Shown piece by piece: positions 28,157 to 39,983 of a DNA stretch of 64,000 bases. The stretch is from Firmicutes bacterium ASF500 (GTDB lineage Bacteria > Bacillota > Clostridia > Oscillospirales > Oscillospiraceae). Every line of letters starts with the position of its first letter. The stretch's first letter is position 1. The position numbers and the translations under genes were made by a program. Below the pieces are notes generated by a model. That model searched no databases. It worked only from the letters and a program-made list of their open reading frames with translations, and had not been told where the DNA came from. The stretch spans positions 2,852,001-2,916,000 of the forward strand of contig CP097573.1 of NCBI GenBank assembly GCA_000492175.2, written 5' to 3'.

Positions 28157-28390
28157 GTAGGGCGTGACCACTGGGCACGCCGTTCTCCGGAGGCGGCGGG
28201 CCGGGTCACCACGCCGTTCTCCGTGGACAGCGGGCCGGGTCACCACGCTGTTCTCCAGAGGCGGCGGGCCAGGTCACCACGCTGTTCTCCGGAGGCGGCG
28301 GGCCCAGGTCACCACGCCGTTCTCCGGAGGCGGCGGGCCAGGTCACCACGCTGTTCTCCAAAAGCGGCGGGCCGGGTCGTCCCGCCCTAC
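28157..28390. repeat. expanded GTAGGG-CCCTAC element with a 34-bp tandem array
   Basis: The element opens with GTAGGGCGTGACCACTGGGC and closes with GGGTCGTCCCGCCCTAC. Between them about six units of 34 bases repeat (CACCACGCCGTTCTCC then roughly GGAGGCGGCGGGCCGGGT), with single-base changes and one 35-base unit. There are no unique spacers. It fills the 276-base gap between two CobW genes. Confidence 0.9.
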
Positions 28391-28399
28391 AAAGCGTTT

Positions 28400-29593
28400 T
28401 TAAACCAGCAAAAACAGCTTCTCCAGCTGGTCCTCCTTCAGCTCGGAGCCGATGACGCACAGCCGGCCGGTGTAGTCGGGGGAGCCCTCCCGGATCTCGA
28501 ACTCTTCGGGGGTGAGGTCGAAGTGGAGCCAGGCGTCCCCGTCCTCGCAGGGAACCATACCCTTGGCCCGGAGGACATAGCCGTAGTCCTCAGTCATCGC
28601 CAGGGCGGACAGGGCCTCCTGGAGGTCCTCACGGCTGTATCTCCGGGCGGTCTCCCGGCCCCAGGCGGTAAAGACCTCGTCGGCGTCGTGATGGTGGTGA
28701 TGGTCGCAGCAGGCGGTGCAGGTGTCGCCGTGGTCGTGGTGGTGCTCATGGTCACAGTGGTCATGGTCGTGGTGGTGCTCATGGTCACAGTGGTCATGGT
28801 CGTGGTGGTGCTCATGGTCACAGTGGTCATGGCCGTGATGGTGCTCGTGCTCACAGTGGCCGTGGTCATGGTGGTGCTCGTGCTCACAATGGCCGTGCTC
28901 GTGGTCGCAGTGAGAGTGGTCCTCGTGGTCGTGGTGATGATGGTGGTGGTGTCCCTCGTGCCCGATTTCCTCCATCAGCTCATGGGCCAGGTCCTGGCCC
29001 CCCTCCATGGCGGAGAGAATCTGAGCCCCGGTGAGCTGGTCCCAGGGGGTGGTGAGGATAGCGGCCTTGGGGTTCTTCTCCCGCAGGAGGGTCACCGCCC
29101 CGTCCAGCTTGTGCTGGTCGATCTTCTGGGTGCGGGACAGGATGATGGCGCAGGCGTGCTCCACCTGGTCGTTGAAGAACTCGCCGAAGTTTTTCATATA
29201 GACCTTGGCCTTGGCGGCGTCCACCACGGTGACGAAGCTGTTCAGATGCAGGTCGGGGCTCTCGGCCTGGACCCGCTCCACGGCGGCTACCACATCGGAC
29301 AGCTTGCCCACCCCGGAGGGCTCGATGACGATGCGGTCGGGGGCGTAGTCGGCCAGCACCTGTTTCAGAGCCGCGCCGAAATCCCCCACCAGGGAGCAGC
29401 AGATACAGCCCGAGTTCATCTCGGTAATCTCCACCCCGGCGTCCTTCAAAAAGCCGCCGTCAATGCCGATCTCGCCGAACTCGTTCTCAATGAGGACGAG
29501 CTTCTCCCCCTTAAAGCTCTCGTCCAGCAGCTTTTTGATCAGAGTGGTCTTTCCGGCCCCTAAAAAGCCGGAGATAATGTCAATTTTGGTCAT
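28400..29593 (-). CDS. CobW/ZNG1-type GTPase with a His-rich metal-binding arm
   Basis: The 397-residue protein has the G3E GTPase core (IISGFLGAGKTTLIKKLLDE, NEFGEIGIDGGF, the metal-binding NSGCICCSL CxCC motif, IEPSGVGKL, ILSRTQKID) and the CobW C-terminal domain (YVLRAKGMV, residues 330-397). Between them, near residues 220-300, lies an arm of His, Asp, Glu and Cys in 11-residue repeats (HDHCDHEHHHD). Such GTPases act as zinc chaperones; the arm probably stores or hands over metal. ATG 29593 follows AAAGGACCTGAGAGAA. It follows the S41 protease by 22 bases. Confidence 0.9.
   Translation of the reverse strand: MTKIDIISGFLGAGKTTLIKKLLDESFKGEKLVLIENEFGEIGIDGGFLKDAGVEITEMNSGCICCSLVGDFGAALKQVLADYAPDRIVIEPSGVGKLSDVVAAVERVQAESPDLHLNSFVTVVDAAKAKVYMKNFGEFFNDQVEHACAIILSRTQKIDQHKLDGAVTLLREKNPKAAILTTPWDQLTGAQILSAMEGGQDLAHELMEEIGHEGHHHHHHHDHEDHSHCDHEHGHCEHEHHHDHGHCEHEHHHGHDHCDHEHHHDHDHCDHEHHHDHDHCDHEHHHDHGDTCTACCDHHHHHDADEVFTAWGRETARRYSREDLQEALSALAMTEDYGYVLRAKGMVPCEDGDAWLHFDLTPEEFEIREGSPDYTGRLCVIGSELKEDQLEKLFLLV
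28722..28915 (-). repeat. 33-bp tandem repeat encoding the His-rich arm
   Basis: Units of 33 bases (CATGGTCACAGTGGTCATGG and TCGTGGTGGTGCT on the plus strand) repeat about five times, three of them nearly identical, the outer ones diverged. Such arrays can change copy number by slippage in steps of 11 residues without breaking the frame. Confidence 0.88.
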
Positions 29594-29615
29594 TTCTCTC
29601 AGGTCCTTTCCCAAT

Positions 29616-33148: not shown

Positions 33149-33403
33149 TCAGCGGCAAAATTCAGATTTACGGAACAGCGAGCGCAGCAGCACGATCCAG
33201 CCCCAGGAGACGGACAGGGCGGGCAGGCTGGCCAGAAGGATGGCCTTCACCGGATGGATCTCAGTAAAGCAGATGGGGCCAAAGAACATCACGAACAGCA
33301 CCACCATCATCGCCAGGAGGGTGATCTGCTCCCGGCGGGTGTTGGGGGGTGTGAGGAATATTTTTTTCAAATCGATTTCCACTCTGGTGACTTCCTTTTT
33401 CAT
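33149..33403 (-). CDS. small two-helix membrane protein of the lyase operon
   Basis: The 84-residue protein has two hydrophobic helices (TLLAMMVVLFVMFFGPICFT and ILLASLPALSVSWGWIVLL) and a basic N-terminus. Its ATG follows the lyase stop by a single base, so it is translated with it. No family was recognised. It may help the transporter or act in export of the product; this is guesswork from position. Confidence 0.75.
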   Translation of the reverse strand: MKKEVTRVEIDLKKIFLTPPNTRREQITLLAMMVVLFVMFFGPICFTEIHPVKAILLASLPALSVSWGWIVLLRSLFRKSEFCR

Positions 33404-33404
33404 A

Positions 33405-34937
33405 TCAGCTCAGCGCTCCTGTCACTTGCTCGGCCACCCGGATCAATCCGCCCGAGTGGATAAAGTCCTTCAGGTACTCAATGTAGGGATGGAGCAGCAT
33501 GTCCTTCTCCATCACCGGCACGGTCTTGCCGATTTCGGCCAGCACCGCCGCCGTGGCGGGGGCGCGGCTCACGTCCGGGTCCACGAACTGCTGCACCTCA
33601 TACACGCTGAGCAGCTCGATGGCCAGCATGTACTCCAGCTTCTCCGCCATGGGCCCCGACTTCTTGCAGGCGTTGTAGCCCATGGCTACGTAGTCCTCCT
33701 GGTTGCCGCAGGTGGGGGTGTTGTCGATGGTGGAGGGGGTGGCAAGCATCCGCATCTCGTTCAACAGGCCGGCCTGGACATACTGGGGGATCATCAGCCC
33801 GGAGTTCAGCCCCGGCTCCTTGATGCAGAAGAAGGGGTAGCCCGACAGAGAGCCGTCCACAATGCGGTTGTTCCGCCGCTCGGACATCTTCGCCAAGCCC
33901 ACGGCGGCGATGCAGGCGCTGTCCATCTCCATGCCCACATAGGCCGAGTCGGCGTTGCAGGCGGAGATCACGTCCTCGTTGCCCTTCTCCGGCCAGATGA
34001 TGGGGTTGTCACAGCAGGAGTTCATCTCGATCTCGATGGTCTTTTTCGCGTCCTCCAGGGTCTTCCGGGCCGCGCCGTGGAGCTGGGGGATGCACCGCAG
34101 GGACAGGGCGTCCTGGACCCGGCTGCCCCGGTACTTCTCCATGATGCCCGACCCTTTCAGCATCCGGCGGACATTCTCCGAGGCGTTGAGCTGGTCGGGG
34201 TGGGGACGGACGGCCATCACCCGGGGGTCAAAGGCGTTGATGACCCCCTTCATAGCCTCCAGGGACATAGCCCCCACGATATCGGCGGACTTGGCGGCGT
34301 TGAGCATGTCGTAGAGAGCCAAGGCGGCCATCGCGGTGGCGGAGGTGGTGCCGGACACCAGGGCCAGGCCCTCCTTGGAGCTGAGCTCCATAGGCTCCAT
34401 CCCGGCCCGGGCCAACGCCTCGGCCCCCTCCAGCAGCTCACCCTGATAATAGGCCTTCCCCCGGCCCAGCAGGACCAGGGCCATATGGGCCTCGGGGGAG
34501 AGGTAGCCCACGCTGCCGTCCCCGGGGGCGTAGGGGGTCAGACCGGCGTTGAGGAAGTCCCGGTACTTCTCCAGCACACACATCCGCACGCCGCTGTACC
34601 CCTGGCCGATGTTTTGCAGTACCATGAGCATGATGCCCCGCACCCGCTCCACGCTCAGGGGCTCGCCCACCGAGACGGAGTGGGACAGAATGATATTTTC
34701 CTGGAGCTGGGCGGTCTCCTTCTTGTCGATGGCCTTGGTACACAGGGCCCCGAAGCCGGTGGTGACGCCGTACATCACCCGCTCCTCCTCCACCCACCGC
34801 TCCACCAGAGCCCGGGAGCGGGCCACCCGCTCCGTGTACGCGGGGGAAAACTCCACCTTCCGCCCGAACCGGGCCACGGAGACGAAGTCCTCCAGGGTGA
34901 TGGGCTCGCCCAGAGTTAACGTATCCTTGATTTCCAT
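33405..34937 (-). CDS. aromatic amino acid lyase-family protein lacking the MIO triad, candidate ergothionase
   Basis: The 510-residue protein has the histidine ammonia-lyase fold: YGVTTGFG (56-63, with the catalytic Tyr), SRVQDALSLRCIPQLHGAAR (273-292) and NSCCDNPII (306-314). The cofactor loop reads GSVGYLSPEAHMAL (141-154), where MIO enzymes have GSVGASGDLAPLAH, so the Ala-Ser-Gly that forms MIO is deleted. The Tyr of QDxYS is Leu. Ergothionase is a known MIO-less member of this superfamily; it removes trimethylamine, a good leaving group, from ergothioneine. The BCCT transporter upstream fits a betaine substrate. Other aromatic betaines such as hercynine are possible; histidine itself is unlikely. 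ATG 34937 is preferred over 34946 for its spacing from AGGAAGG. Confidence 0.75.
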   Translation of the reverse strand: MEIKDTLTLGEPITLEDFVSVARFGRKVEFSPAYTERVARSRALVERWVEEERVMYGVTTGFGALCTKAIDKKETAQLQENIILSHSVSVGEPLSVERVRGIMLMVLQNIGQGYSGVRMCVLEKYRDFLNAGLTPYAPGDGSVGYLSPEAHMALVLLGRGKAYYQGELLEGAEALARAGMEPMELSSKEGLALVSGTTSATAMAALALYDMLNAAKSADIVGAMSLEAMKGVINAFDPRVMAVRPHPDQLNASENVRRMLKGSGIMEKYRGSRVQDALSLRCIPQLHGAARKTLEDAKKTIEIEMNSCCDNPIIWPEKGNEDVISACNADSAYVGMEMDSACIAAVGLAKMSERRNNRIVDGSLSGYPFFCIKEPGLNSGLMIPQYVQAGLLNEMRMLATPSTIDNTPTCGNQEDYVAMGYNACKKSGPMAEKLEYMLAIELLSVYEVQQFVDPDVSRAPATAAVLAEIGKTVPVMEKDMLLHPYIEYLKDFIHSGGLIRVAEQVTGALS

Positions 34938-34968
34938 GGATTCCATCCCTTCCTGTGGTTGATTTTTT

Positions 34969-35042
34969 GTAGGGCGCGACGACCCGGCGCGCCGTTTTTT
35001 GGTTTTGCTCAGAAGCGGCGGGCCGGGGTCCTCCCGCCCTAC
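34969..35042. repeat. GTAGGG-CCCTAC element between the BCCT and lyase genes
   Basis: GTAGGGCGCGACGACCCGGC opens and GCCGGGGTCCTCCCGCCCTAC-type sequence closes the 74-bp element; the arms are imperfect complements and can fold in the mRNA between the two genes. Confidence 0.85.
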
Positions 35043-35050
35043 AGAGGGAG

Positions 35051-36628
35051 TTACCCCTCGATCTGGTCCACGCTGTCCACGATGTCCTTTTTGGTCTCGG
35101 GGTCGAAGAAGAACACCTTAAAGGCCGCGGCCACCTGGAAGATAAACACCACCAGCACCACGAAACCGCCGCAGGCCGCCAGATATTTCACGCCGTCCAC
35201 GCCCTGAGCGCCGCCGCCGAAGGCCACCATAATGCAGGCGATCACGCCGATGGACACGCCCCAGACGATTTTCTGCCAGATGGCGGGCTCCTCGTCGTGG
35301 CGGGCTCCGCTGGTGCACAGGGCGGCGATGGTGGTGGACATGGTGTCCGCCGTGGTGGAGAAGGCGGCGATGAGGGCCAGGATGATAACGGGAATGATAA
35401 TCATGCCCAGGGGGACGTTCTTGAGGAACTCCCACAGACCGGCGGTGGCGCCGCCGGCGTTGATGGCGGCAATGATGTCGGCGCTGCCGCTCTTCTGCCA
35501 CTCCAGGGCGGTGGAGCCCCACACGGAGAACCACACAAAGCCGAAGGAGGCGGGCAGAATCCAGTTGACGATGAGGAACTGCCGCACGGTGCGGCCGTAA
35601 GCGATGATGGCGAAGAAGATGCCCATCAGGGGGGCGTAGGCGATCCAGATGGCCCAGTCATACATGGTCCACCAGGTGACCAGGGCGGAGCCGCCCACAG
35701 TGTAGGGGTCGAAGCCCCACATCCAGAACCGGTCCAGCCAGTAGCCCAAGCCCACGTTGGCCATATTCAAAATGTAGATGGTGGGGCCGATGATGAACAG
35801 CAGGACCAGCAGCACATAGAAGATCTTGGAGGTCAGTCCGGCCAGCCACTTGATGCCCTTGTCGATGCCGGTGACCGAGGCGATGGTAAAGGTGATGGTG
35901 ATAATGGCGGTGAGGGCCATCCACACGATGGGGCCCTGCTGTACGCCGTAGGCGGAGTAGAGGCCGGAGCCGATGAGGGCCAGACCGGCGCCCAGAGAGG
36001 AGGCCAGACCCAGAGCGATAGCCAGCACAGACAGCACGTCCACCAGCACCACCCAGATGCCCTGAGTCACCTTCTCCCCAAAGATGGGGGTGAGGGAAGC
36101 CGCTACAGAGAGTTGTTTTTTACGATTGAAATACATATAGGCGATGAGCACGCCGGACATGGCGTACATGGCGTAGGGGATGAAGGTCCAGTTATAGAAG
36201 CAGCGGCCCATGGCGAACAGCTCCGCGTCCTGGGTCAGGGGGGTGATGCCGTAGCCGTCCAGCTCGCCGTAGATGTTGCCGTAGTAGATGAGCACCTCGT
36301 TGACGCCGTAAGTAATCAGACCGGTGGCGATGCCGCCGGTGAGGGTCATGGCGAACCAGGAGCCGAAGGAGTGCTTGGCTTTGGCCTCCGGGCCGCCGAA
36401 GCGGATCTTGCCCACCTTGGTGAACATCAGCAGACAGGCCAGCAGCAGGGTGACCATCGCCACGATCTGATACAGCCAGCCGAAGGTGCTCAGCGACCAG
36501 TCGAACATGGTATAGGTGACCTCGGTCAGCCAGGCGTTGTTGACGATGCCCAGCAGGGCCGCGCCGCCGATGACCACAAAGCAGGGGATGAATACGTTCC
36601 ATCGGATCGGTTTGTTTTCGTGTTTCAT
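35051..36628 (-). CDS. BCCT-family betaine/carnitine/choline transporter
   Basis: The 525-residue protein has twelve membrane helices and the BCCT signature WTMYDWAIWIAYAPLMGIFF followed by YGRTVRQF. The aromatic box normally reads WxWWxxW in BetP; here it is W-A-I-W-I-A-Y, with the final Tyr as in CaiT-type carnitine exchangers. NxxTDGxS-like regions (KNAWLTEVTYTMF at helix 1) fit the family. It should carry a trimethylammonium compound, by ion symport or exchange. ATG 36628 after GGAGAGAAAC; first gene of a sigma-54-driven operon with the lyase. Confidence 0.92.
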   Translation of the reverse strand: MKHENKPIRWNVFIPCFVVIGGAALLGIVNNAWLTEVTYTMFDWSLSTFGWLYQIVAMVTLLLACLLMFTKVGKIRFGGPEAKAKHSFGSWFAMTLTGGIATGLITYGVNEVLIYYGNIYGELDGYGITPLTQDAELFAMGRCFYNWTFIPYAMYAMSGVLIAYMYFNRKKQLSVAASLTPIFGEKVTQGIWVVLVDVLSVLAIALGLASSLGAGLALIGSGLYSAYGVQQGPIVWMALTAIITITFTIASVTGIDKGIKWLAGLTSKIFYVLLVLLFIIGPTIYILNMANVGLGYWLDRFWMWGFDPYTVGGSALVTWWTMYDWAIWIAYAPLMGIFFAIIAYGRTVRQFLIVNWILPASFGFVWFSVWGSTALEWQKSGSADIIAAINAGGATAGLWEFLKNVPLGMIIIPVIILALIAAFSTTADTMSTTIAALCTSGARHDEEPAIWQKIVWGVSIGVIACIMVAFGGGAQGVDGVKYLAACGGFVVLVVFIFQVAAAFKVFFFDPETKKDIVDSVDQIEG

Positions 36629-36638
36629 GTTTCTCTCC

Positions 36639-36660
36639 GTATGCGGCGGGAGCCGCATAC
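36639..36660 (-). promoter_or_regulatory. hairpin in the BCCT leader
   Basis: GTATGCGGC and GCCGCATAC flank GGGA within the roughly 54-base leader, 10 bases before the ATG. It has no U-tract; it may affect mRNA stability or translation. Confidence 0.5.
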
Positions 36661-36692
36661 TCTCCTTTCCTGTTATTCTGCTATATTTATGA

Positions 36693-36708
36693 AGCAAGCT
36701 TCGGGCCA
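36693..36708 (-). promoter_or_regulatory. sigma-54 (-24/-12) promoter of the BCCT-lyase operon
   Basis: The minus strand reads TGGCCCGAAGCTTGCT, one mismatch from the consensus TGGCACGN4TTGCT, with GG and GC exactly 10 bases apart. The start site would be near 36682. It lies between the divergent activator gene and the transporter, as expected. Confidence 0.85.
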
Positions 36709-36748
36709 ACCCGGTCGAAAGAGAGGAGATTAAGAGAAATTTATATTA

Positions 36749-36860
36749 TTTGCACAGATTTGCTCCGTTCAGATTGTGCAAACCATCCACAGAAAATGCG
36801 GGCCGCGCAGTACCGCCCCTGGGTGCGGCTGGGTCTTTATGCAAAATTTCTTTGCATATC
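36749..36860. promoter_or_regulatory. two TGCAAA dyads, probable enhancer (UAS) for the sigma-54 activator
   Basis: TTTGCACA (36749-36756) and TGTGCAAA (36775-36782) form one inverted pair; TATGCAAA and TTTGCATA around ATTTC (about 36839-36859) form a second. They lie 40 to 165 bases upstream of the -24 box, the usual place for activator sites. The rest of this intergenic region carries only the divergent promoters. Confidence 0.65.
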
Positions 36861-36881
36861 GCAAAAATTTGGTGCACCTTC

Positions 36882-36910: not shown

Positions 36911-36961
36911 GACCCTTGCGGGGCCCTGTGCCCCAAGCGTTTGGAGGGGAGGGGGCGCGCT

Positions 36962-38614
36962 GTGCTTTACGACATCCTGTTCACCCTGGACGCCCAGGGG
37001 CGTTTCTGCGGCGTCTCCTGGGGGAGCCGGGAGGCGGAGGATCTGTATCGGGACCTCTTTGAGAGCTGGGCCGGCAGCGGCCGGATGGCTAACACCGCCT
37101 TCGACCTCCCCGAGGGCGCGTCCAGCGGACAGTTTATCTGGGAGGAGAGCGCCTTTTCCTTTCAGATTCTCCCCGCCCCGGAGAACACCCGCTGGCTGCT
37201 GCTCAAGCGGGTGGACCAGCGGCCCTATCTCCTGGCCCGGGCTCTGGACCAGATCACCGACGGGGTGCAGATTTATGACAAAAACGCCTGCGCCGTCTTC
37301 TTCAACCGGGCCAGCCGGGGCATCTCCCACATCCCCAGCGGGGTCAATATAGAGGGGCGGCACCTCCTGGACCTGTATAACCTGGACGAGAGCGTCAGCA
37401 CCACCATGACCGCCCTCCAGACCCAGGCCCCGGTGATCGACCGGGTGGACAGCTTCCGGGCCAACGACTTCAGCACCGCCCCCATCGCCTCGGCCAACAC
37501 CTCCTACCCCATCTTCCGGGAGGGGGAACTGCTGGGGGCGGTGGTCTTTGAGCAGACGGCGGACATCGTGGGCGCCAACATCAAGAAGCTGGAGGCCACC
37601 CGGCGGGCTCTCAGCTCCTTTCAGAACAAGCCGCCGAACATCAGCTTTTCCGGCTATACCTTCGATAACGTGATTGGCAGCTGTCCCAAGCTGCGGGAGG
37701 CGGTGGCCCTGGCCCAGCGGGTGGCCCCCCAGGATAGTCCCATCCTCCTGGTGGGGGAGACGGGTACGGGCAAGGAGATCTTCGCCCAGAGCATTCACCG
37801 GGCCAGCCGCCGCCGGGGCGGCAAGTTTCTAGCCATCAACTGCGCCGCCGTCCCGGAGACGCTGATTGAAAGCCTCCTCTTCGGCACCAAAAAGGGCAGC
37901 TTTACCGGCAGTGAGGACAAGGCGGGCTATCTGGAGGAGGCCGCCGGGGGCACTCTGTTTCTGGACGAGCTGAACTCCATGAGCCTGGCGATGCAGTCCA
38001 AAATTCTGCGGGTCCTTCAGGAAAAAACCTTCCGCCGGGTGGGGGGCAGTCAGGATCTGCGGCTGGATGTGCGGGTGATCTCCTCCTGCAACGAGGACCC
38101 CTTCAAGGCCATTTCGGAAAATACCTTCCGCCGGGACCTGTTCTACCGGCTGTCCACGGTGATGATCGAGCTGCCCCCCCTCCGGGACCACCTGGAGGAC
38201 CTGGAGGAGCTGATCCGCTACCGCCTGGACGCCACCGCCTACCAGTTTGTCCGGGCGGTCACCCGGATCGAGCCGGAGGTCTACGCCCTCCTGCGCTCCT
38301 ACCACTGGCCGGGCAACGTGCGGGAGCTGTTCCACGTGCTGGACTACGCCCAGAACGTCACCGACTCCGAGCTCATCGGGGCGCGGCACCTGCCCCCCTA
38401 CCTCCTCAAGCACCGCGCTGAGCCCGCCGCCCCCATCCAGCCGGTGGATTTCTCCCAAAAGACCCTGCAAGGGCTGATGGACGACTATGAGAGGCAGATC
38501 ATCGCCCAGGCCCTGGAGCACTGCGGCTACAACATCTCTCAAACCGCCCAGGCGCTGGGCATTCTGCGGCAGAGCCTGCAATACCGCATCAGAAAATACG
38601 GACTGATCTTTTGA
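36962..38614 (+). CDS. sigma-54-dependent enhancer-binding activator (PAS-AAA+-Fis HTH, RocR-like)
   Basis: The 550-residue protein has an N-terminal sensory region with a PAS-like part (residues 90-200: ARALDQITDGVQIYDKNACA), an AAA+ domain with Walker A GETGTGKE (265-272), the sigma-54 contact loop as GSFTG (312-316, usually GAFTG), Walker B GGTLFLDEL (329-337), FRRDLFYRLS and HWPGNVREL, and a Fis-type HTH at the end (NISQTAQALGILRQSLQYRI). It binds upstream dyads and opens sigma-54 promoters on sensing a ligand, perhaps the betaine. The start is GTG 36962, 7 bases after GGAGGGGAGGGGG; TTG 36941 is less likely. Confidence 0.93.
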   Translation: MLYDILFTLDAQGRFCGVSWGSREAEDLYRDLFESWAGSGRMANTAFDLPEGASSGQFIWEESAFSFQILPAPENTRWLLLKRVDQRPYLLARALDQITDGVQIYDKNACAVFFNRASRGISHIPSGVNIEGRHLLDLYNLDESVSTTMTALQTQAPVIDRVDSFRANDFSTAPIASANTSYPIFREGELLGAVVFEQTADIVGANIKKLEATRRALSSFQNKPPNISFSGYTFDNVIGSCPKLREAVALAQRVAPQDSPILLVGETGTGKEIFAQSIHRASRRRGGKFLAINCAAVPETLIESLLFGTKKGSFTGSEDKAGYLEEAAGGTLFLDELNSMSLAMQSKILRVLQEKTFRRVGGSQDLRLDVRVISSCNEDPFKAISENTFRRDLFYRLSTVMIELPPLRDHLEDLEELIRYRLDATAYQFVRAVTRIEPEVYALLRSYHWPGNVRELFHVLDYAQNVTDSELIGARHLPPYLLKHRAEPAAPIQPVDFSQKTLQGLMDDYERQIIAQALEHCGYNISQTAQALGILRQSLQYRIRKYGLIF

Positions 38615-38630: not shown

Positions 38631-39983
38631 ATGATGGAATTATCCCAGGTACAGACCCAACAGCTGAATCACCAGCAGCTGATGGGATTAAAGGTGCTCC
38701 AGATGGGGACCATGGAGCTGGAGCAGTATCTCCGCGAGCTGACCCAGGACAACCCCCTGGTGGACCTGGAGCCGGAGGCCCCCGTCCCGGAGAAGGAGGA
38801 CGAGCTGCTCCAGTATCTCCAGTGGCTGGAGGACAACGACCACCAGAATTTCTACTGCCACCAGCTCAGCGAGGAGGAGCTGGACCCCCTGTCCCGGGTG
38901 GGGACTGACGGCGGTCTGGAGGAGACCCTGTTCCGCTTCCTCTCCCGGCAGCTCTACTCCATGGACCTGGAGGAGGAGACCGCCGAGACGGTGCGGTATC
39001 TGGCCTCCTGCCTGGACGAGCGGGGCTATCTCACCATCCCCCTGGACGAGCTGTCCCGGAGCGGCCGTATCCCCCTCCCCCGGCTGGAGCGGGCGCTGGA
39101 CATCCTCCGGGGGCGGGAGCCCGCCGGGGTGGGGGCGGAGAACCTGTCCCAGTGCCTGGAGCTCCAGCTGAAGCGCATCCACGAGGAGGGCCCCGCCCTG
39201 GACATCGTGCGCCATCACCTGGAGGCGCTGGCCCGGCGGCACTACGCCGCCATCGCCTCCCGGCTGAGCCTGCCCATTGAGGAGGTCAAGGCCGCCGCCG
39301 CCCTCATCCGGGAGCTGGACCCCCGGCCGGGCGCTGTCTTTGACCGGGCGGAGCAGGCCCCCTATATCCTCCCCGACCTCTTTGTGGAGGAGCAGGACGG
39401 GCGGTATTTGGCCCGCCTCCGGAAGCCGGGCCGGCCCCCCTTTCAGATCAACGGCTATTACCGCAGCCTCCTGGCCCAGTCCCAGGACCCCCAGGTGGCG
39501 GACTATCTCCGGGACAAGCTCCATCAGGCGGAGGGCGTCCTTCAGGCGGTGGCCCAGCGGGAGAGCACCCTGCTTCGGTGCGCCCAGGCCATTGTGGACG
39601 CCCAGGCCGATTTCCTCCGCCAGGGCCCCCAGGCCCTGCGGCCCATGACCATGGCCGAGACGGCGGAGCGGCTGGAGCTCCACGAGTCCACCGTCAGCCG
39701 GGCGGTGCGGGACAAGTACATCCAGTGCCCCCAGGGCACCTATCCCCTGAGCTATTTCTTCTCCCGCGGCGCTACCGCGAAGAAGGGGGGCTCACAGGTG
39801 GGAGGGACCGCCGCCCGGCTGATGCTGAAACAGCTCATCGACCAGGAGGACCCCCGCAGCCCCCTGTCCGACCAGAAGCTGTCCGGCCTCATGACTCAGG
39901 CCGGCTGTCCCATCTCCCGGCGGACCGTGGCCAAATACCGGGGAGAGATGAACATACCGGATATGCCCGGACGAAAGCAGTAA
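38631..39983 (+). CDS. rpoN: RNA polymerase sigma-54 factor
   Basis: The 450-residue protein has region I (Gln-rich QVQTQQLNHQQLMGLKVLQM, then LEQYLRELTQDNPLVDL), the core-binding part, the HTH (TMAETAERLELHESTVSRAV, then YIQCPQGTYPLSYFFSRG) and the RpoN box near the end as SRRTVAKYRGEMN (usually ARRTVAKYRE). It lies 16 bases after the activator gene and is probably co-transcribed with it, with AGGAGGCGTTT before ATGATG. Region II is short. Confidence 0.96.
   Translation: MMELSQVQTQQLNHQQLMGLKVLQMGTMELEQYLRELTQDNPLVDLEPEAPVPEKEDELLQYLQWLEDNDHQNFYCHQLSEEELDPLSRVGTDGGLEETLFRFLSRQLYSMDLEEETAETVRYLASCLDERGYLTIPLDELSRSGRIPLPRLERALDILRGREPAGVGAENLSQCLELQLKRIHEEGPALDIVRHHLEALARRHYAAIASRLSLPIEEVKAAAALIRELDPRPGAVFDRAEQAPYILPDLFVEEQDGRYLARLRKPGRPPFQINGYYRSLLAQSQDPQVADYLRDKLHQAEGVLQAVAQRESTLLRCAQAIVDAQADFLRQGPQALRPMTMAETAERLELHESTVSRAVRDKYIQCPQGTYPLSYFFSRGATAKKGGSQVGGTAARLMLKQLIDQEDPRSPLSDQKLSGLMTQAGCPISRRTVAKYRGEMNIPDMPGRKQ

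Follow-up and report, generated by a model that had tools for sequence, protein, structure and literature searches.

In histidine ammonia-lyase (HAL), Tyr53 is the base that takes the beta proton, His83 and Glu414 bind the imidazole, Arg283 binds the carboxylate, and the amine is handled by Asn195, Tyr280, and the residue triad that forms the 4-methylideneimidazole-5-one (MIO) cofactor. Hercynine is N-alpha-trimethylhistidine and is derived from the diet and from fungi. Ergothionase is described as lacking MIO in a report that argues from BLAST searches that the enzyme is not widespread in gut bacteria, with divergent homologues left unaccounted for (PMC13405746). Here, we describe an operon of Firmicutes bacterium ASF500 that encodes a betaine/carnitine/choline transporter (BCCT), a HAL-family lyase without the MIO triad, and a small membrane protein. 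It lies in a stretch of 64,000 nucleotides (contig CP097573.1, positions 2,852,001 to 2,916,000; hereafter, the window, in whose numbering coordinates are given unless a locus is named). We consider it fairly probable, judging from sequence, that the operon serves the inducible uptake and cleavage of a histidine betaine, in all likelihood hercynine, and thereby feeds the histidine utilization (Hut) pathway.

Organization and recurrence of the operon

The three genes are located on the minus strand in the order BCCT gene, lyase gene, and small membrane protein gene. The lyase gene (33405..34946) encodes a protein of 513 amino acid residues that matched PF00221 (Lyase_aromatic) with an E-value of 7e-163 over profile positions 1–464 of 466 and is thus a member of the HAL/PAL superfamily; its residues and the hut linkage of its relatives led us to predict a hercynine trimethylamine-lyase. 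The BCCT gene, given as 35051..36709 with a TTG start in the mechanical listing of open reading frames (ORFs), matched PF02028 (E = 7e-107; profile positions 1–480 of 485). The TTG at 36709 overlaps a sigma-54 promoter-like site; by eye, the ATG at 36658 or at 36628 is the likelier start. The third gene, an ORF at 33149..33403 starting one base past the lyase stop codon, encodes an 84-residue protein with two hydrophobic stretches by hydropathy. The ORF listing and the Pfam matches thus agree with the initial annotation, which had reported these three genes in a row. It had also called the 84-residue protein apparently undescribed; this protein matched no family in searches of Pfam and NCBIfam profiles at E 0.001. 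It has 233 homologues, and the few source names given among the 120 listed were Lawsonibacter, Flintibacter, and Pseudoflavonifractor.

Relatives of the lyase were collected by a scan of genome contigs, which yielded 240 loci. Counts given below refer to the best 80 of these 240, with neighbouring genes counted by tblastn, and in places to the 63 of the 80 loci that have at least 2.5 kb on either side of the lyase, some contigs being short. A survey of whether the trio recurs had been proposed together with the initial annotation, and the outcome was graded: a BCCT gene was found within 400 nt of the lyase gene in 56 loci (47 of the 63 with checked flanks), and it was of the window type, defined as at least 50% identity to the window BCCT, in 49. 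A homologue of the 84-residue protein was encoded immediately 3′ of the lyase gene in 28 loci, and the complete trio was found again in 26.

Active site of the lyase

Alignment with the HAL of Pseudomonas putida, whose numbering is used for the residue counts, placed the lyase segment GSVGYLSPEAH (residues 144–154; 34485..34517, minus strand) against GSVGASGDLAPLAH in HAL. The initial annotation had noted a deletion of Ala-Ser-Gly at this site; the deletion was borne out, and more exactly, a single Tyr takes the place of all four residues of Ala-Ser-Gly-Asp, a net loss of three. The reported exchange of the Tyr in QDxYS for Leu (QDALS; HAL Tyr280) was also confirmed, and the motifs YGVTTGFG, GSVGYLSPEAH, QDALS, and NSCCDNPII were all found in the sequence. 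In addition, Asn195 is changed to Ser and Phe329 to Ala, with Tyr53, His83, Gln277, Arg283, and Glu414 retained.

This pattern was followed through the matching lyase of each of the 80 loci. The Tyr at the MIO site (Tyr148 of the window lyase), Glu152, and the equivalents of Tyr53, Gln277, and Arg283 were present in all 80, and those of His83 and Glu414 in 79 each, with one Asp and one gap, respectively. Position 280 was occupied by Leu in 79 lyases and Met in one, and position 195 by Ser in 75 and Asn in five, whereas position 329 was mixed (Ala, 48; Pro, 18; Cys, 14). Because the same pattern runs through the 80 loci, the loss of the MIO triad is, on these sequences, real and not a sequencing accident. 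A HutH with a shifted triad was rejected as a candidate, as the segment has no Ala-Ser-Gly and carries Tyr in 80/80 loci. The window lyase also missed the hutH cut-offs of TIGR01225 (499 vs 539 bits) and PRK09367 (516.5 vs 524 bits). Public sources, where they name its homologues among the 120 listed, call them histidine or aromatic amino acid (ammonia-)lyases, although these proteins do not have the cofactor triad of those enzymes.

Relationship to ergothionase and HutH

The genome of the window, a single 3.67-Mb contig, encodes other members of the superfamily. Locus L032 carries a lyase (L032:5745-7262) matching Treponema denticola ergothionase (6s7j) with 659 bits and 60% identity, with a BCCT gene directly after it, and L031 carries a HutH with the MIO triad. 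The genome therefore holds an ergothionase orthologue and the window lyase as well, which may be set beside the argument that ergothionase is not widespread in gut bacteria (PMC13405746). Pairwise comparison put the window lyase at 28% identity with 6s7j, 30% with the L032 ergothionase, and 42% with the HutH of the genome, and its top matches in a PDB search were HALs (best, 297 bits; ergothionase, 180 bits). The alignment with ergothionase and HutH that had been suggested alongside the initial annotation thus gave a divided answer: Ser195 and Leu280 are common to the window lyase and ergothionase, and identity is higher to HutH. The likeness to ergothionase stands in the absence of MIO, these two residues, and the betaine-type transporter, but not in overall identity or in the tree.

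The tree was built from 71 rows picked from the loci, with no outgroup of phenylalanine or tyrosine ammonia-lyases. The 43 lyases with Tyr in place of the triad (GYL lyases) formed a single clade with support of 99/97, the six ergothionase-type rows formed a separate clade (100/100), and a weakly supported split (77/51) kept all 22 MIO-type rows together. In the approximately unbiased (AU) test, two topologies parting the window lyase from ergothionase were not rejected (p = 0.097 and 0.416); the tree and this test fit a single loss of MIO as well as two losses. One group of four rows in the GYL clade retains both Asn195 and Tyr280, and some other GYL lyases retain Asn195; the likeness to ergothionase at positions 195 and 280 is therefore probably convergent in part.

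Thirty genomes containing the window-type lyase were chosen to count co-occurrence with ergothionase, for which a lyase had to reach 46% identity or more with the L032 protein. Nine of them contained one, and the best match in the other 21 was at most 35% identical, so the window-type lyase is usually found without an ergothionase. The idea that the window lyase is the ergothionase of this genome was rejected, as the orthologue is encoded elsewhere and the clades are separate. The window lyase probably performs ergothionase-like chemistry, namely, MIO-free elimination of trimethylamine, and lies outside that family by the tests made.

Linkage to the Hut pathway

Of the 80 loci, 14 had both hutU and hutI within 10 kb of the lyase gene; 13 of these are among the 63 with checked flanks. 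A rough chance expectation, based on a 20-kb span in a genome of 3–6 Mb, is below one in 80, and the loci are not independent. The hut genes were on the strand of the lyase gene in all 14, downstream in nine and upstream in five, and the loci belonged to Acidaminococcus (two), Lachnospiraceae (three, one labelled Blautia), Sporomusa (three), Bacillaceae (five), and Acinetobacter (one). An NCBIfam scan covered eight of these 14 hutU genes. Six encode classic full-length HutU, which scored between 984 and 1020 bits against hutU and between 688 and 718 bits against thiourocanate hydratase, whose cut-off is 930. The long-form HutU of L092 scored 450 bits for hutU (cut-off, 375) and 296 bits for thiourocanate hydratase, and the HutU of L075, cut by the contig end, scored 329 bits, under the hutU cut-off. 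By these scores, the six classic proteins are ordinary urocanases and not thiourocanate hydratases. The presence of ordinary urocanase beside the hut-linked relatives favours hercynine as the substrate and urocanate as the product, and the lyase product is best read as urocanate.

Replacement of HutH by the window-type lyase was considered and rejected. Sixteen genomes were chosen, 12 for the loci at which hutU was initially noted and four for Bacilli-type loci, and all 16 carry a separate MIO-triad lyase, as does the genome of the window. In the L112 genome, the stretch matching the MIO-triad lyase contains a TAG in one listing and is a 505-residue open frame in another. In the hut loci L058, L104 (Priestia abyssalis, a relative of soil type), and L109, a MIO-triad HutH is encoded beside the window-type lyase. 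The genome of the window has its own hutU (439 bits; cut-off, 375), adjoined, by BLAST, by homologues of hutI, ftcD, and fchA. No match to an MttB-type methyltransferase was found in this genome, and trimethylamine would therefore probably be excreted or otherwise used.

Transporter

The best PDB relatives of the window BCCT were the trimethylamine transporter 8zw8 and BetP. The segment of BetP transmembrane helix 8 (TM8) associated with glycine betaine, FYWAWWISWS, is not matched; the window BCCT has YDWAIWIAYA instead. This pattern was matched by 42 of 45 window-type BCCTs including that of the window (38 exactly and four with one or two letter changes), and the Asp was present in all 42. 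The six ergothionase-type BCCTs have NYWSWMIAYA (five) or NYWSFMIAYT (one) at this site. Transporter types were exchanged between the two modules: in L046, L079, L087, L101, and L106, the lyase is accompanied by a BCCT that is 54–56% identical to the ergothionase-linked BCCT and 31–32% identical to that of the window, and in L055, an ergothionase gene is followed by a window-type BCCT gene (52%). Because of this exchange, the window-type lyase and ergothionase seem to handle related cargo.

Regulation

A sigma-54 (-24/-12) promoter-like site, TGGCCCGAAGCTTGCT, precedes the BCCT gene at 36693..36708 on the minus strand with one mismatch; it is the sole one-mismatch match in the window, and there are no matches with zero mismatches. 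With up to two mismatches, 15 matches were observed in the window vs 29 expected by chance, so the number of sites is no argument. Conservation was assessed in 46 loci with an upstream activator homologue; some of these homologues, at only 33–42% identity, could represent different activators. Ahead of the first gene, the best-matching site had a mean of 1.15 mismatches vs 3.70 in mononucleotide shuffles, and a site with at most two mismatches was found in 41 of the 46 loci, the exceptions being L044, L082, L090, L091, and L092.

The divergently oriented gene at 36941..38614 on the plus strand, whose start codon is uncertain, encodes a sigma-54-dependent activator with an AAA+ domain (PF00158) and a Fis-type helix-turn-helix (PF02954), predicted to regulate the operon; a homologue was found in 47 of the 80 loci. 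Directly after it is rpoN, the gene for the sigma-54 factor (38631..39983, plus strand; TIGR02395, 376 bits; cut-off, 277). The divergent gap contains the palindrome TTTGC-N5-GCAAA (36851..36865, no strand), a candidate activator-binding site and the only match to TTTGC-N3-8-GCAAA in the window. Among 15 picked relatives, the palindrome occurs shortly 5′ of the BCCT gene in seven, only elsewhere in L043, and is absent in seven; over the 80 loci, there are 34 in 1.41 Mb. From the promoter-like site and the activator gene, the gene set is apparently inducible.

Distribution

The nearest named loci among the best 80 of 240 were those of Pseudoflavonifractor, Lawsonibacter, and Flintibacter, which suggests that the host is a gut bacterium of the Oscillospiraceae type. 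Among 398 genomes drawn from the phylum, lyase matches at a cut of E 1e-100 occurred in 100 (probably HutH), and none outside the genome of the window exceeded 46% identity. A plasmid search returned 894 records matching the window lyase, with none at 60% identity or more. The distribution of the close family looks patchy.

Other lyase genes and neighbouring sequences

Another lyase of the same genome, in L034, is split over two genes (L034:6297-8532, minus strand; G000:C1, about 1866296-1868531). The adjacent ORFs of 361 and 378 residues each align with a separate part of the HAL family, as if they made two interlocking subunits; the MIO site of the first reads GSTGLSDLAP. L033, also in this genome, holds an ergothionase-like gene (51% identity to 6s7j) that has GEAD, is shortened at its 3′ end, and is adjoined by a sigma-54 regulator gene (L033:5781-11410); its neighbours show similarity to 3-hydroxyacyl-CoA dehydrogenase and to cis-3-hydroxyproline dehydratase, in each case under the family cut-off. 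Molybdenum hydroxylase (xanthine-dehydrogenase-like) genes lie beside ergothionase-like genes in L032 (2039-5587), L055, L075, L077, L099, and L148, and perhaps act on thiourocanate at a later step; in L074, genes of this kind occur with no ergothionase detected.

The further GYL group retaining Asn195 and Tyr280 comprises lyases of L144, L145, and L146, from genomes of the same genus, L047:7734-9290, and L101:13388-14956, and is represented by four rows in the tree. Those of L144 and L145 adjoin a sigma-54 regulator gene and a gene 27% identical to sodium/solute symporter family (SSF) transporters, and that of L146 adjoins such a regulator gene. The genomes of L075 and L074 contain tandem HutH-like genes (L128, L129, L138, and L139), of which one copy carries ASGD and the other SSD; the SSD type lacks the Gly of the MIO triad and retains Asn195 and Tyr280. 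Elsewhere in the window, a 404-residue ORF at 28400-29614 (minus strand) looks CobW-GTPase-like by eye and has a tandem stretch rich in His, Asp, and Glu at about 28731-28905; it adjoins a 34-bp tandem repeat of about six copies (28176-28378).

Proposed function and alternatives

For the lyase, the loss of the amine-handling residues together with the retention of those for the imidazole, the carboxylate, and the beta proton favours hercynine. In the proposed scheme, the divergent sigma-54 activator would switch the operon on, presumably on sensing the betaine, and hercynine would be imported by the BCCT protein. The imidazole would be held by the equivalents of His83 and Glu414 and the carboxylate by that of Arg283; the conserved Tyr (HAL Tyr53) would take the beta proton, trimethylamine would be expelled, and urocanate would be left. 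Urocanate would then enter the ordinary Hut pathway (HutU, HutI, FtcD) and end as glutamate carbon. MIO, Asn195, and Tyr280 would be dispensable here because a quaternary ammonium is a good leaving group and can form no amine-MIO adduct. We infer the substrate, the product, the direction of transport, the inducer, and the role of the small protein from comparisons of sequences and gene neighbourhoods.

Several observations weigh against the hercynine module. In 66 of the 80 loci, hutU and hutI were not found inside 10 kb, some contigs being short; the linkage in the others could have been carried over from an ancestral hutH gene; and in the genome of the window, about 1 Mb separates the operon from hutU. 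No BCCT gene was found in 20 of the 80 loci, nine of which have an SSF-type transporter gene. The five Asn residues at position 195 and the variation at position 329 point the same way, and ergothioneine or other aromatic betaines may be additional substrates.

The leading reading of the initial annotation was a second ergothionase, which would convert ergothioneine to trimethylamine and thiourocanate. The missing triad, the shared Ser195 and Leu280, the ergothionase-like neighbours in 5/80 loci, and the exchange of transporter types would suit it. However, the genome already has the 60% identical orthologue with its own BCCT, and the window lyase, at 28% identity to 6s7j, lies outside the 100/100 clade and lacks the GxGD motif. 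The urocanases near the hut-linked relatives are of the ordinary kind, and ergothionase accompanied the window lyase in only 9 of the 30 chosen genomes. Ergothioneine as the main substrate is thus unsupported, and a second ergothionase appears unlikely to us. Cleavage of another aromatic betaine, such as trimethyl-tyrosine, trimethyl-tryptophan, or phenylalanine betaine, to an aryl acrylate would likewise agree with the BCCT linkage, the lost triad, and the spread of GYL lyases over several groups; with the imidazole-binding equivalents of His83 and Glu414 retained in 79/80 lyases each and hut genes in 14/80 loci favouring urocanate, we give it about one chance in ten.

The hut linkage and the imidazole residues could also be explained by a MIO-independent histidine ammonia-lyase or by an enzyme for an N-methylated histidine other than hercynine. 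Either is improbable, with a chance slightly below that of the aryl acrylate route, given that a MIO-triad lyase is also present in 16/16 genomes tested, that the amine-side residues are lost, and that a betaine-type transporter gene lies within 400 nt in 56/80 loci. A catalytically dead HAL-fold sensor or regulator would account for the loss of the cofactor-forming residues, but the invariance of the Tyr53, Gln277, and Arg283 equivalents and the location among catabolic genes, in an operon that includes a transporter and is preceded by a sigma-54 site, make this the most remote of the alternatives and very hard to believe.

Returning to the hercynine module, the chance is somewhat better than even that the window lyase represents a second and undescribed family of MIO-free trimethylamine-lyases, which opens hercynine to the Hut pathway in gut and soil bacteria and is part of a wider GYL radiation. 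This radiation includes at least three groups in the tree, each of which may cleave another histidine or aromatic betaine. If this is true, a gene for hercynine catabolism is gained, along with a possible source of gut trimethylamine that is invisible to surveys of choline trimethylamine-lyase or ergothionase, and a natural test of when a HAL-fold enzyme can dispense with MIO, namely, where the leaving group is quaternary from the start. No description of a hercynine lyase was found in the literature searched by titles and abstract openings, and a prior description elsewhere is possible; the terms 'hercynine lyase', 'hercynine degradation', and 'hercynine ammonia' did not occur in the papers retrieved on the subject.

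Comparison with known systems

The T. denticola ergothionase (6s7j, 6s7q) resembles the window lyase in belonging to PF00221, lacking the MIO triad, having Ser195 and Leu280, and retaining Tyr53, His83, Arg283, and Glu414, and its orthologue in the genome of the window is directly followed by a BCCT gene. It differs in having GEGD at the MIO site (6s7j and L032; GxGD-type) in place of GYL (GSVGYL), in retaining Phe329, which is Ala in the window lyase, and in its 28% identity and separate 100/100 clade. HutH is the nearest relative by sequence (42%), has the same imidazole and carboxylate residues, and, like HutH, some relatives of the window lyase are encoded amid hut genes; it is distinguished by the changes of ASGD to Tyr, Asn195 to Ser, Tyr280 to Leu, and Phe329 to Ala, and by the hutH cut-offs that the window lyase missed. 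The bbu gamma-butyrobetaine cluster of gut bacteria is similarly reported as a trimethylamine-releasing gene set with a betaine/carnitine/choline transporter; unlike the window operon, in which a HAL-family lyase is the candidate, it eliminates trimethylamine from a CoA thioester by means of a flavoenzyme (PMC8364193).

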